NCBI GenBank assembly: GCA_949289445.1
Contig: CASEOD010000078.1
Span: forward strand, 1-52,725
Length of the DNA stretch: 52,725 nucleotides
Origin: an uncultured Eubacteriales bacterium
GTDB lineage: Bacteria; Bacillota; Clostridia; Peptostreptococcales; Anaerovoracaceae
Direction of reading: 5' to 3'
Part shown: positions 37,363-52,725 of the stretch, one piece after another
How the letters are laid out: the number at the start of each line of letters is the position of its first letter
Position numbering within the stretch: position 1 is the first letter of the stretch
Notes under the pieces: model-generated
What the model saw: the letters and a program-made list of their open reading frames with translations, nothing else
Database searches by the model: none
What the model was told of the DNA's origin: nothing
Position numbers and translations under genes: made by a program

Positions 37363-37509
37363 TGGTAGCACCTCCTGTGATTTTTACACAACATAAAAGC
37401 GGGCATGAATGTACCCGCTTCAAAACACGCTGACTGCGTATGTTCCAGACTATTAACCCGACAAACCTGCGTCTGAAAGGTGAGAAGCGGATAACTTCTT
37501 CTTCATTAC
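37363..37509 (-). ncRNA. L20-type leader with attenuator before infC
   Basis: About 147 bases lie between the promoter and infC. They end in a hairpin, AAGCGGG/CCCGCTT (37397-37403 with 37414-37420), followed by TTTTATGTT on the minus strand, an intrinsic terminator. Upstream are ACGC-rich pairing segments. Position and layout match the L20 leaders of Bacillota, where L20 mimics rRNA binding to favour termination. Confidence 0.75.
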
Positions 37510-49063: not shown

Positions 49064-50077
49064 TTATACACCGATCGAAACGGTCACCAGAAATGGTATC
49101 AGCAGGCTTTCCGAAACCCCTATTGCAAAAGAATAAATGATAATATCCGCTCTGGTGGATTTTTCTACCAGAGTCACTCCGATGTCTGCCGCAGCCACTC
49201 CCGGAAGACTGCAGACCTCAATGTACCCGATTCTTTTTGCCAGAATCGGAATCAGGATAATTCCGCAGGTTTCCCGAATCACATTATACATAAAAGAAAC
49301 TGCACCTGCCATCACATGACCGGCCCCGGAAATGGCAACCGGTGCAAAAGTGTACCAGCCGAATCCGAAACCGATGGCAAGACATTCCCTCAAAGTCAAA
49401 TCTGTCAGAAAAAAGCTGAGCGCGGCGGAGGAAAGTCCCGTACCCAAAATGACGGCAAAAGGAAAAATCAGTACCCTAAGACCTATCTGCCTGATCTGAG
49501 CGGCCACCGTCCCGGTTCTTCCCATGTCAAAGCCGATGCTTGCCATCAGGATACAGAGTCCTGCTGTCATGACATAGGATGCATCTGAATTAAACCCTTC
49601 TACATCTGCGATATAAACCCGAATAAAAAAGTATCCGGACAGAATTCCCAAAACGACAAACAGAATGATGAGAAAGGTCATCGTCCCCACAGAATTGCCT
49701 TCTTTCTGCTTCTCCGTGTCTTTCTCTCCATTCTCCTCCTCTGTCTTCAGAGGCTCTGAATCATCCGGACATATCTGCTGTTTCAGCCGGCCGAACTTAT
49801 CGATTCCGAGCAGAGTTCTGGCTGCTGTTACCGACAGAACGCCTCCTGTTACCACCACCAGAGTAAACAGAAGAGACTGCAGTCCGATGGTTCCAAGATT
49901 TCGGATGATTTCTTCATTCGATCCCATGCGAATGCCCATGAGAAACACCAGAACCGATACACTGACCAGCATAATCCCGTTGGCGATTCCGGTCAGACAT
50001 GCAAATCTTTCTCTCGTCCTGCTTCCCAAAAAATAGCCGAGAGCCATACAGCTTAAATAAAGCGCCACAAATGCCAT
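49064..50077 (-). CDS. LysO-family exporter (lysine exporter type)
   Basis: A 337-residue membrane protein of the LysO/YbjE (DUF340) family, whose known member exports lysine. The N-terminal half has GYFLGSRTRE and IGLQSLLFTL. The C-terminal half has MTAGLCILMASIGFDMG and the CLAIGFGFGWYTFAPVAISGAG segment, conserved in the family. A charged, hydrophilic linker of about 35 residues (SEPLKTEEENGEKDTEKQKEG) joins them, which explains why it is longer than the usual ~300. GGAGGAG precedes the ATG. Confidence 0.88.
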   Translation of the reverse strand: MAFVALYLSCMALGYFLGSRTRERFACLTGIANGIMLVSVSVLVFLMGIRMGSNEEIIRNLGTIGLQSLLFTLVVVTGGVLSVTAARTLLGIDKFGRLKQQICPDDSEPLKTEEENGEKDTEKQKEGNSVGTMTFLIILFVVLGILSGYFFIRVYIADVEGFNSDASYVMTAGLCILMASIGFDMGRTGTVAAQIRQIGLRVLIFPFAVILGTGLSSAALSFFLTDLTLRECLAIGFGFGWYTFAPVAISGAGHVMAGAVSFMYNVIRETCGIILIPILAKRIGYIEVCSLPGVAAADIGVTLVEKSTRADIIIYSFAIGVSESLLIPFLVTVSIGV

Positions 50078-50188: not shown

Positions 50189-50563
50189 CTACACAACCTC
50201 GTTAATCATACCGATGAGCTGATGTATATATTTCTCATAGTCAGTCAGCGCCATGGACCAGTTGGCAAGACATCCCTTCCCCTCCGGAGTGATGCTGAAA
50301 ACTCTCTTGGGCTTACCTGCCTCGTCAGACTCATCGATTTCCCATCTGGATGTCAAAAGACCGGAGTTTTCCATTTTTTTCAAATAACGGTACACTCCTG
50401 TTGCATCCGGAACCTTTCCCTCAAATCTGGAGATTTTTCCTATCTCCTTCAGAATCGCAAAGCCGTGCAAATCCTGTCCTTTCGCTAAAATACACAGGAT
50501 CAAAGGCTGCAGCAGTTTATCCAGGTTCTTGCCCTGACAAGGGCAGTCCATTTCAATGTACAT
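50189..50563 (-). CDS. PadR-family regulator with N-terminal CxC motif
   Basis: The 124-residue protein has a PadR winged helix (LDKLLQPLILCILAKGQDLHGFAILKEI... TGVYRYLKKMENSGLL... PKRVFSITPEGKGCLANW). It is unusual in opening with a DCPCQGKN segment, two cysteines at positions 7 and 9 that could bind metal or cofactor. The ATG (50563) lies 14 bases after the pylSn stop, with GGAGAG upstream. As the last gene of the pyl segment it is a candidate regulator of pyrrolysine or methylamine use. It ends in UAG. Confidence 0.85.
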   Translation of the reverse strand: MYIEMDCPCQGKNLDKLLQPLILCILAKGQDLHGFAILKEIGKISRFEGKVPDATGVYRYLKKMENSGLLTSRWEIDESDEAGKPKRVFSITPEGKGCLANWSMALTDYEKYIHQLIGMINEVV

Positions 50564-50576
50564 AAACTTATCTCTC

Positions 50577-50903
50577 CTATTCCTTGTGGATGAGATCACT
50601 GCCGTAATGAGAGGCAAACATGGTTTTAGAATACTTTTCCAGCTTCCATTCCGGAACCTTGCATTTTTTGCACGGTTCTGCCGCCCATTTGTTCCGCAGC
50701 CATCTCGCGGCTCTCGAGTTCCGTGAATTATACAGTCTTAAAGTCTGGCCGCAATGAGTAGTAACGGTAATGTATTTTCCATTCAGATCGATTTCTCTGA
50801 TTCCGTGCAGAACACCGCTTCTGGCAGGCCAGAGTTTCATTTTGTTGAGAAGAACAAAGAGTTCCACATTTTTTCTGTAATATCTTTTTTTACTGTCAGC
50901 CAT
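50577..50903 (-). CDS. pylSn: Pyrrolysyl-tRNA synthetase N-terminal protein
   Basis: PylSn is the separate tRNA-binding protein of bacterial pyrrolysyl-tRNA synthetase; it grips tRNA-Pyl while PylSc charges it. The 108-residue protein has LWPARSGVLHGI (about 24-35), CGQTLRL, the hallmark NSRNSRAARWLRNKW (59-73) and CKKC (78-81). H33, C51, C78 and C81 line up with the zinc ligands of the archaeal domain. It begins in a TAATG overlap with the CobW-type gene. Its stop is UAG, followed two codons later by UAA, so amber readthrough would add only a pyrrolysine and two residues. Confidence 0.93.
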   Translation of the reverse strand: MADSKKRYYRKNVELFVLLNKMKLWPARSGVLHGIREIDLNGKYITVTTHCGQTLRLYNSRNSRAARWLRNKWAAEPCKKCKVPEWKLEKYSKTMFASHYGSDLIHKE

Positions 50904-51820
50904 TAAAGATAGAACCTTCCTTCCAGAATTTCCTTAGAGCTCTCTGTAATCATACTCAGCATTCTGATGCCGACAGAAGAGATTACCACGATTTCTGTCT
51001 TCTCCTCTGAAGGCCACGGAGTAAGGACCAGATTGTTCACCACGCCGCTGACTTCCAGAGTTCCCTCTTCCACAGTCCGGCAAAAGCCCTTGATTCTGTA
51101 GCTGCTTCCTGCAATGGATCTGATAAACCGAACCAGTTTATCTTTTTCCACCGGTTCATCTGCTCTGACAATAAAGGACTGCGGACGGCTTTCATAAGTA
51201 TTGGTGGTTTCTTCACTTCCTGCAAGGCATGCTGCGAAATGATCCACAATATCTTTGATATCCACATCACAGTGAGTCGCCGCATAAATCTGCACCGCCT
51301 CGTTTATTTCACTTATCTTTTCCGATATTTCCTTAAATGTATTTTCATCAATGAGATCCATCTTGTTGACAATTACAGCATTGGCATGTTTCACCTGACG
51401 TTCCAGTGCAGGCAGCACTTCTGCCAGCTCCAGAAAACTGCATCCGTCAACCACACAGATGCTGCCTCTCAACAGGTAGTTATCATTGGTGTCCTTCTTG
51501 ATTCCTGCCACAATATCATCCATGTTGGAAGGATCTGCAAGACCGGACGCTTCAATAAAGAGATACTCAATATCCGTCTTTGACATTTCGATAAGTCCAT
51601 CAACAAACTTGTCTTTTATGCAGGCACAGAAAATGGAGCCGTTGGACAGTTCCGCAATATCAATTCCGTCTCTGCTGACCAGTTTTGCATCAATGTTGAT
51701 CTCTCCAAACTCATTGATGATAACACCGATTTTATGTTCTTTATAGGTATCCAGCAGTCTCTGCATCAGGGTTGTCTTTCCTGCTCCCAGAAAACCGCTG
51801 AGAAGTACAATCTGAATCAT
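50903..51820 (-). CDS. CobW/COG0523-type GTPase
   Basis: A 305-residue G3E-family GTPase. Walker A is GFLGAGKT (9-16), a switch-like INEFGEINID follows, then a GSIFCACIK segment (60-68) in place of the usual GCICC metal motif, EASGLADP (90-97) and NKMD (152-155). A C-terminal domain follows that differs from standard CobW. Such proteins deliver metals or help corrinoid enzymes. It sits between tRNA-Pyl and pylSn, so a role with corrinoid-dependent methyltransferases is a fair inference. ATG 51820 has GGAGG upstream. Confidence 0.88.
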   Translation of the reverse strand: MIQIVLLSGFLGAGKTTLMQRLLDTYKEHKIGVIINEFGEINIDAKLVSRDGIDIAELSNGSIFCACIKDKFVDGLIEMSKTDIEYLFIEASGLADPSNMDDIVAGIKKDTNDNYLLRGSICVVDGCSFLELAEVLPALERQVKHANAVIVNKMDLIDENTFKEISEKISEINEAVQIYAATHCDVDIKDIVDHFAACLAGSEETTNTYESRPQSFIVRADEPVEKDKLVRFIRSIAGSSYRIKGFCRTVEEGTLEVSGVVNNLVLTPWPSEEKTEIVVISSVGIRMLSMITESSKEILEGRFYL

Positions 51821-51912
51821 AGCTCTTTCCTCCAAAGCCGGTCTGACAGATTTACGTCAGTTCCTGTTTTCGTATCCCGGTAGCTTTTCCATCGGAAACA
51901 CGAAAAATAAAA

Positions 51913-51984
51913 TGGCGAGGTGCCCGGGAGTCTCACCCGGCTGCATGGATTTAGAGTCCATGTGATCCATACGATCCGCACCCC
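51913..51984 (-). tRNA. pylT: tRNA-Pyl (anticodon CUA)
   Basis: The 72-base sequence folds as pyrrolysine tRNA. Acceptor stem GGGGTGC/GCACCTC (one G-U pair), a single base, D stem GATC/GATC with a 5-base loop lacking GG, a single base, a 6-bp anticodon stem CATGGA/TCCATG with loop CTCTAAA (anticodon CTA), a 3-base variable loop, T stem CCGGG/CCCGG with a loop lacking TTC, discriminator G and an encoded CCA. The 6-bp anticodon stem, tiny D-loop and short variable loop are diagnostic. It starts six bases after the pylD stop and so is probably cotranscribed with it. Confidence 0.96.
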
Positions 51985-51990
51985 ATGTAA

Positions 51991-52725
51991 TCATGATTTT
52001 CCCCAGAGACTCTGTCCCAGCATCACAGCTGTTCCGATCTCCAGATTGTCGTGAACAGACGACTTCTCAAAAAAGTCAGCTGCATCTTCATCCATTGAGT
52101 AAGGCACGCCGGGACTGGCATAAAGCACTCCTTCCCGCAGATCCTCTCTGCGCAGCCATCCTCCCTCATTGGTAAAATCCAGAATAAAAGAATAATCCTT
52201 TATCCCGTTCCTGTCCCTGAGAAGGGTACCGTCAAATTTCTCCACTGCGGCAGGATCTTTATCATAAAGCACAAACCTGATCCCCAGTCGATCAAGAATC
52301 CTCGCAGCCTCTTTACCAACAATTCCGTATCCTATCTGCAGAATCTCTTCACTGTAAGGATCTTTTCCCGCCTTTTTCATCATGGCGCAAAGTACTCTGA
52401 TAAAGCCAAGCGCAGTTGCATAATTATTGTCTGAGCATCTATTCTCACGGATATTCAGAGCGAGATATCTGATATCATCAGCAAAGAACAGAAGTGAAAA
52501 ACCTCCGCAAACGGCCTCATAAATTCCGTCCACATCCGTATGCTCCATGACTTCAGCAGTAAAACCCATGGATCTGACAATCGCCGCCACAGATTCACTG
52601 AAACTGCCGATGATGCCTTCCCCCTGTGTAATGGGAATCACAGCAACTCTGCAGTTTTCCTGCGCCTCTCTCACGGTTTCCTCAGATGCGTCAAAGAGAT
52701 CTGCGGCAAGCATACAGAGATCCAT
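51991..52725 (-). CDS. pylD: Pyrrolysine biosynthesis protein PylD (5' truncated by window)
   Basis: PylD oxidises the lysine-ornithine dipeptide intermediate with NAD, giving pyrrolysine after ring closure. The visible 244 residues have VAVIPITQGEGIIGSFSESVAAIVRSMGF near the N-terminus, FFADDIRYLALNIRENRCSDNNYATALGF, the dinucleotide-binding IGYGIVGKEAA, LYDKDP and the SPGVPYSM end region. By comparison with Methanosarcina PylD about 10-30 N-terminal residues lie past the window edge, so the ATG at 52725 is probably internal. pylB, pylC and pylSc would be expected upstream. Confidence 0.93.
   Translation of the reverse strand: MDLCMLAADLFDASEETVREAQENCRVAVIPITQGEGIIGSFSESVAAIVRSMGFTAEVMEHTDVDGIYEAVCGGFSLLFFADDIRYLALNIRENRCSDNNYATALGFIRVLCAMMKKAGKDPYSEEILQIGYGIVGKEAARILDRLGIRFVLYDKDPAAVEKFDGTLLRDRNGIKDYSFILDFTNEGGWLRREDLREGVLYASPGVPYSMDEDAADFFEKSSVHDNLEIGTAVMLGQSLWGKS

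Follow-up and report, generated by a model that had tools for sequence, protein, structure and literature searches.

The window analysed here is the whole 52,725-nucleotide contig CASEOD010000078.1 (assembly GCA_949289445.1) of an uncultured Eubacteriales bacterium of the Anaerovoracaceae, and its end carries a bacterial pyrrolysine (pyl) cassette in which a gene for a COG0523-type GTPase stands between the tRNA-Pyl gene pylT and pylSn. Rather than being a pyrrolysine gene, the GTPase probably accompanies a poorly known B12-linked methyltransferase of the same methylamine pathway, namely a uroporphyrinogen decarboxylase (URO-D)-like protein with a thioredoxin (Trx) tail, hereafter URO-D-Trx. 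On the strength of gene content, linkage, co-occurrence and motif conservation, we hold it moderately probable that the locus forms the 3' portion of a bacterial methylamine operon with its own pyl cassette and that the GTPase serves the maturation of corrinoid methyl transfer, most specifically of URO-D-Trx. This marks out URO-D-Trx as a concrete candidate for the methyl-acceptor step, with the GTPase as its possible maturase, guards against misnaming the GTPase a pyrrolysine factor, and puts forward roles that can be tested in laboratory acetogens, with Acetobacterium fimetarium, in which one stretch (L110) holds pyl genes, URO-D-Trx and the GTPase, as an example of a carrier.

Co-occurrence and linkage of the GTPase with URO-D-Trx

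At loci without pyl genes, the recurrent neighbour of the GTPase is a 450-amino-acid URO-D protein. Among 197 genomes of the family, scored by protein searches at E <= 1e-40, the GTPase is present in 23 of the 24 genomes with URO-D-Trx versus 5 of the 173 without it (phi 0.87); within the URO-D-Trx genomes, it is found in 17/17 of those with pyl genes versus 6/7 of those without, so that pyl adds nothing once URO-D-Trx is present. MttB was rejected as a better correlate, since its association with the GTPase (19 of 35 MTTB genomes versus 9 of 162 others, phi 0.53) is weaker. Two of the five GTPase genomes without URO-D-Trx are fragmentary metagenome-assembled genomes (MAGs), G000 (84.8% complete) and G111 (78%), whose pyl contigs stop short of the position where relatives have URO-D-Trx. 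The same tendency appears in a draw of 391 genomes from the class, where the GTPase occurs in 21 of the 39 genomes with URO-D-Trx versus 9 of the 352 without.

Physical linkage was counted at 67 GTPase loci; of the named loci (the best 80 of a capped list) these take in L108-L128 and L165 only, with L092 omitted as a copy of L108 and class copies fetched without flanks left aside. URO-D-Trx lies at most 300 bp from the GTPase and on the same strand at 28 of them (8/29 in the family, 20/38 outside it) and anywhere in the fetched stretch at 46. The tight pairs span several phyla, with KSB1, Verrucomicrobia, Lentisphaerae and Zipacnadia labels, and PylSn is in the stretch at two of the 28, L109 and L220; across all 67 stretches, PylSn is found in 16 and within 300 bp in 7, all of the latter in the window's family. 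In the window's own clade (L039, L041, L042, L051), 6.5-6.8 kb separate the GTPase from URO-D-Trx, which is upstream on the same strand and close to where the gene run starts.

In Desulfosporosinus sp. SRJS8 (L109), pyl genes flank the URO-D-Trx/GTPase pair on both sides, seemingly as two pyl clusters. In Anaerovorax sp. IOR16, a member of the family for which L091 (genome G140) and L108 are identical in the GTPase tree, a second PylB-like gene (L092 7551-8594; same as L108) lies between URO-D-Trx and the GTPase, with 69% identity to the best PylB of a pyl locus.

Relation of the GTPase to pyrrolysine genes

The first-pass annotation had offered two roles for the GTPase, a helper of corrinoid methyltransferases and a pyl-specific factor. 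The former agrees with the linkage to URO-D-Trx and with the gene neighbourhoods described by Haas 2009, whereas the latter, such as a chaperone delivering zinc to PylSn, is judged very unlikely from the co-occurrence counts and the GTPase tree. The proximity of the two genes is real: the GTPase stop overlaps the pylSn start by one base (TAATG), and the order pylT-GTPase-pylSn recurs at 6 of the family's 28 pyl loci (27 plus the window's own, several truncated by contig ends), so the arrangement in the window is not due to chance. Nevertheless, the GTPase is present at only 13 of these 28 loci and in at least three positions, that is, in the gap between pylT and pylSn (6), directly 5' of pylSn in a stretch in which no tRNA-Pyl was detected (L040), and 3-7 kb off pylSn, near a RamA-cluster open reading frame (ORF), an antiporter or MtbB.

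Co-occurrence with pyl genes, which had been suggested as a check, differs with the taxonomic level. Within the family the two are associated (the GTPase in 19 of 28 PylSn genomes versus 9 of 169 without, phi 0.63), as a pyl-specific role would have it, but the GTPase is missing at E <= 1e-40 from 9/28 pyl genomes, and PylSn from 9/28 GTPase genomes. At class level, the GTPase occurs in 30 of the 391 genomes, and PylSn passes the cut-off in 3 of these 30 and not in the other 27. Outside the family, PylSn also stands within the stretch at L109, L110 and L220, yet the indifference of the GTPase to pyl where URO-D-Trx is present, and a motif that does not vary with the presence of pyl, argue against a tie to pyrrolysine.

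The tree adds evidence on both sides. It holds 84 sequences, one of them from L220 and the other 83 chosen among the 138 that had a tblastn match (all 29 family and 29 class copies, six CxCC outgroups, and L108-L123, L127, L128 and L165), and was built by a quick method with support from the Shimodaira-Hasegawa-like approximate likelihood ratio test (SH-aLRT) only. The window GTPase falls within a clade of six, all pyl-linked, which comprises the six pylT-GTPase-pylSn copies (SH-aLRT 99). When the pyl label is given to sequences with PylSn inside the fetched stretch (L079, whose contig has PylSn about 11 kb away, being labelled 'other'), it changes 8 times on the tree, and none of 500 shuffles gives so low a number, which indicates that linkage to pyl is also inherited within clades; at least 5 of the changes are forced by starred branches, so this linkage was gained or lost more than once.

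Family, motif and structure of the GTPase

The protein has both the cobW and the CobW_C domains of a COG0523/CobW-like G3E GTPase. Orthology to CobW proper, ZigA and the PRK11537 GTPase was rejected, the scores lying below the NCBIfam equivalog cut-offs (TIGR02475, 86.1 against 332.1 bits; NF038288, 89.2 against 600; NF008578, 101.1 against 361). The CXCC motif of COG0523 is absent, and the window GTPase reads GSIFCAC in its place, as do 27 of the 29 family copies. The first reading gave this site as CAC in place of CICC; more precisely, in the alignment to Escherichia coli YjiA (1nij, phmmer E 6.6e-26), S62-I-F64-C65 stands opposite C64-I-C66-C67 and I35 opposite E37, and the last Cys of the YjiA GCICC is the only one in common, with a further Cys two residues later. 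C65 and C67 are invariant in a 12-row alignment (A2) and C122 is nearly so.

A general zinc-limitation paralogue of COG0523, standing here by chance, would have the same domains; however, the distinct motif, with 79 xIFCxC sequences versus 58 GCxCC and one other in a census of 138, and the linkage to URO-D-Trx across several phyla render this explanation extremely improbable. The solved relatives at phmmer E <= 0.001 are those of YjiA (1nij, 4ixm, 4ixn), which also gives the best fold matches, at 23-24% identity (Foldseek): the AlphaFold2 model of the GTPase, with a predicted local distance difference test (pLDDT) score of 84.9, has 4ixm as its top match (E 5e-17, template modelling (TM) score only 0.48 over both domains). 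Taken together, the GTPase is a COG0523-type protein lacking the CXCC feature and, as judged by its co-localisation with corrinoid-dependent methyltransferases, probably of subfamily 13.

The URO-D-Trx partner and a possible selenocysteine

The partner joins an MtaA-like part (4ay7, E 4.3e-22) to a thioredoxin-like tail (1fo5, E 5.5e-5) with CAAC. In the model of the L108 homologue (pLDDT 82.3), the barrel matches 4ay8 (TM 0.84 by target) and the tail runs beta-alpha-beta-alpha-beta-beta-alpha. All 44 rows with a near-full-length match retain the first of the two MtaA cysteines and both Trx cysteines; at the position of the second MtaA cysteine, 41 have Cys and 3 have an in-frame stop. The His of MtaA, which we take to be a zinc-site residue, is Phe in 44/44 partners, and the idea that an MtaA-like zinc site was carried over unchanged was rejected on this ground.

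The in-frame stop is TGA in L117, L118 and L121, to which the partial L165 can be added, and its context is always APG-TGA-DMPYDVP. These four loci are deltaproteobacterial (TGA at 1281 in L117, 2873 in L118, 5787 in L121 and 707 in L165), and three of them (L117, L118, L121) encode the CAAC thioredoxin in an ORF of its own immediately downstream. Reading from the codon and its context, the second Cys is perhaps selenocysteine here, in what would be a possible selenoprotein family. On the 3' side of each TGA stands the same stem-loop, with a stem of 7 bp and the loop GGU; as a selenocysteine insertion sequence (SECIS)-like hairpin it was rejected by folding energy, being ordinary in three of the four loci (z -0.50, 0.19, -1.01 and -2.75; L165 alone stands out), and the four stretches are nearly identical, so covariation cannot be counted. 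SelB passes the cut-off in one of the four genomes, that of L165 (368 bits), the best matches in the others remaining below it (190, 140 and 107 bits); all 14 control genomes gave matches as well, below the cut-off except for two above it, and sub-cut-off matches therefore prove little. Selenoprotein reviews, in their main texts, list a CobW-like selenoprotein with UxxC, and the terms uroporphyrinogen, UroD and URO-D were not found there.

Proposed role in methyl transfer

In the mechanism considered here, amber-decoded MttB, MtbB and MtmB would pass the methyl group of methylamines to the corrinoid protein, a RACo/RamA-type activase would hold the corrinoid reduced, and URO-D-Trx would accept the methyl group as second methyltransferase. 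The GTPase, using GTP, would load or repair a metal, with zinc as the first guess, at the two-Cys site of URO-D-Trx, while the Trx domain would maintain the reduced state of those cysteines. The place of the GTPase between pylT and pylSn would follow from the need for all these functions in one co-regulated operon, with no action on pyrrolysine. A single-transcript operon, the partner as second methyltransferase, the cargo and a physical contact between the two proteins are what we infer. On a broader scale, URO-D and the xIFCxC GTPase, with a CAAC thioredoxin that is either fused or free-standing, could tentatively be seen as an undescribed conserved module that carries out and services the methyl-acceptor step of bacterial corrinoid methyltransferase systems, in some deltaproteobacteria with selenocysteine as its catalytic or metal-ligand cysteine, and that was recruited more than once into pyl operons as second methyltransferase.

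Several observations weigh against this reading. At class level, 18 of the 39 URO-D-Trx genomes are without the GTPase (E <= 1e-50; 8 at >= 55% identity), and 9 of the 30 GTPase genomes are without URO-D-Trx; 21 of the 67 loci, several of which end at contig edges, showed no URO-D in the stretch fetched, and a protein search of the window's own MAG shows no URO-D-Trx. PylSn and URO-D-Trx are themselves associated (17/24 versus 11/173), and the co-occurrence counts ignore shared ancestry. The chemistry is also uncertain: with Phe for His throughout the partners, zinc at their site is not assured, and two of the three residues mutated in 4ixn, by its entry title an E37A/C66A/C67A mutant of Zn-bound YjiA, are changed in the GTPase (E37 and C66; C67 is kept), which leaves metal binding there uncertain as well. 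The non-canonical zinc sites of both proteins may mean another metal, selenium/sulfur chemistry, or the corrinoid protein or the activase as target. Lastly, according to the available text of PMC13222342, CdmB, of the URO-D fold, acts without zinc as a first methyltransferase, and quaternary amine use by E. limosum has MtqA as its second methyltransferase, so that the acceptor role of URO-D-Trx is a guess from MtaA homology and gene place.

An activase or corrinoid-protein target is at the core of another explanation, in which a MeaB-like GTPase gates the loading of the corrinoid protein with its cofactor or works together with a RamA-type activase. The altered metal-site residues suit it, the fold search returns MMAA/MeaB-like entries (2www, 3nxs, 4gt1) among the G3E relatives, and a RamA-cluster ORF adjoins the GTPase in L048, L049, L050, L053, L059 and L061, and also neighbours it in L092; the six adjacencies would also fit an activase target. 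Against it stand the lack of any MeaB model among the seven NCBIfam matches and the strong co-occurrence with URO-D-Trx, in a scoring of the 197 genomes that covered URO-D-Trx, PylSn and MTTB and not RamA or the corrinoid protein. We consider this explanation unlikely overall, and service to URO-D-Trx remains the preferred reading.

Relation to known systems

The helper idea is supported by earlier work, and the association is in kind already known: the available text of Haas 2009 (PMC2770081) describes COG0523 subfamily 13 as co-localising with corrinoid-dependent methyltransferase genes, clostridia included. The subfamily is described there beside mtaA/mtaB/mtaC/ramM and a MeTr homologue, with no pyl operon mentioned in that text, and all COG0523 members are given as CXCC, in contrast to xIFCxC here, a comparison made by description and not with the Methanosarcina sequences. 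The bacterial clusters pylTScBCDSn and pylSnScBCD of Borrel et al. 2014 (PMC3941956) share the split PylS, pylBCD, tRNA-Pyl and amber methyltransferases nearby, whereas here pylT-GTPase-pylSn closes a corrinoid gene run; the main text of that paper mentions interruptions and does not contain the word 'GTPase'. The methylcobalamin:coenzyme M methyltransferases MtaA/MtbA (4ay7) share the URO-D fold and the two Cys with the partner, which differs by the Phe noted above and by a C-terminal thioredoxin with CAAC or CAPC. At the level of a literature search of partly available texts, no account was found of this GTPase in pyl operons or of its pairing with URO-D-Trx. What would be new is the place of the GTPase in a pyl operon and the URO-D/Trx/GTPase module as a candidate methyl-acceptor step.

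Host genome and relatives

The source MAG measures 2.14 Mb and is 84.8% complete, and the window is its contig C78. Searches for PylB and PylSc gave no match over the cut-off in the MAG, whose pyl contig stops within pylD; the functional context of the cassette falls outside this contig. The expectation of further pyl genes upstream holds in two congeners, G193 (L039) and G165 (L041), in which a corrinoid protein, a URO-D/MtaA-like protein and two RamA-cluster ORFs (one of them, in L039, a RACo-type activase) precede pylB, pylC, pylSc, pylD, pylT, the GTPase, pylSn, padR and LysO. In L039, a 233-amino-acid ORF (2117-2818) with no Pfam match at 1e-5 lies between URO-D-Trx and the RACo-type activase.

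An amber-containing methyltransferase, also anticipated at first pass, is present: the MAG holds four MTTB matches, one of which, on contig C69, has an in-frame TAG in the motif VGGT-O-ADSK (VGGT-TAG-ADSK). The same motif is found in the pyl locus L041, and VGGT-O-GDSK in L049 and L050. Of 11 loci scanned, L041, L042, L048, L049, L050, L053, L110 and L220 carry in-frame-TAG methyltransferase genes in the same stretch. PylSn is present in 28 of the 197 family genomes drawn, the window's genome counted. A separate case is a family genome, 97% complete, that has an MttB match with an in-frame TAG (G008:C21:1315241-1316677) and gave no PylSn match.

The pyl cassette and its neighbours

The minus-strand order pylD, pylT, GTPase, pylSn, padR proposed by the first-pass annotation is confirmed by domain scores and ARAGORN (Table 1).

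Table 1. Genes of the pyl cassette and its downstream neighbour in the window
Feature	Coordinates	Strand	Evidence
pylD, 5' end cut by contig end	51991..52725	minus	PF21455 (PylD_N) 103.5 bits, cut-off 27
pylT, tRNA-Pyl, anticodon CTA	51913..51984	minus	ARAGORN
COG0523-type GTPase, xIFCxC subclade, 305 amino acids	50903..51820	minus	PF02492 (cobW) 137.7 bits, PF07683 (CobW_C) 31.5 bits
pylSn, 108 amino acids	50577..50903	minus	TIGR03912 126 bits, cut-off 51.15
PadR-type regulator	50189..50563	minus	PF03551 44.5 bits, cut-off 27
LysO-type lysine exporter, downstream neighbour	49064..50077	minus	PF03956 158 bits

The gaps are 6 bp between pylD and pylT, 92 bp between pylT and the GTPase, and 13 bp between pylSn and padR; the GTPase starts at the ATG at 51820, with an alternative TTG at 51835 in the ORF list. 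PylD, called clear in the first description, passes the cut-off for the PylD_N domain, while TIGR03911 stops just short of its cut-off on the truncated protein (149.1 against 150.05 bits). By hand reading, the tRNA has an anticodon stem of 6 bp, a variable loop of 3 nt, a D loop of 5 nt, a single base separating the acceptor and D stems, and an encoded CCA, compact features that we take to be marks of tRNA-Pyl and that, with the CTA anticodon, agree with the initial assignment; an Rfam scan of the window gave no match at gathering score over this site. The H, C, C and C of PylSn, presumably its zinc ligands and already noted as retained, are invariant in 23/23 aligned PylSn, the window included, which represent 23 of the 28 pyl loci, the remaining five having yielded no ORF in that cluster.

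The padR gene is probably the regulator of the pyl operon and occupies the equivalent position in L039, L041 and L051. The LysO gene, judged by its position, is a downstream neighbour and only a candidate member of the operon; a LysO-like match is found in 7 of the 28 pyl loci, the window included. Since pyrrolysine is made from lysine, LysO and pyl could conceivably be linked in their regulation. Elsewhere in the window, at 37385-37509, lies an ordinary ribosomal protein L20 leader (Rfam RF00558, 59.1 bits).

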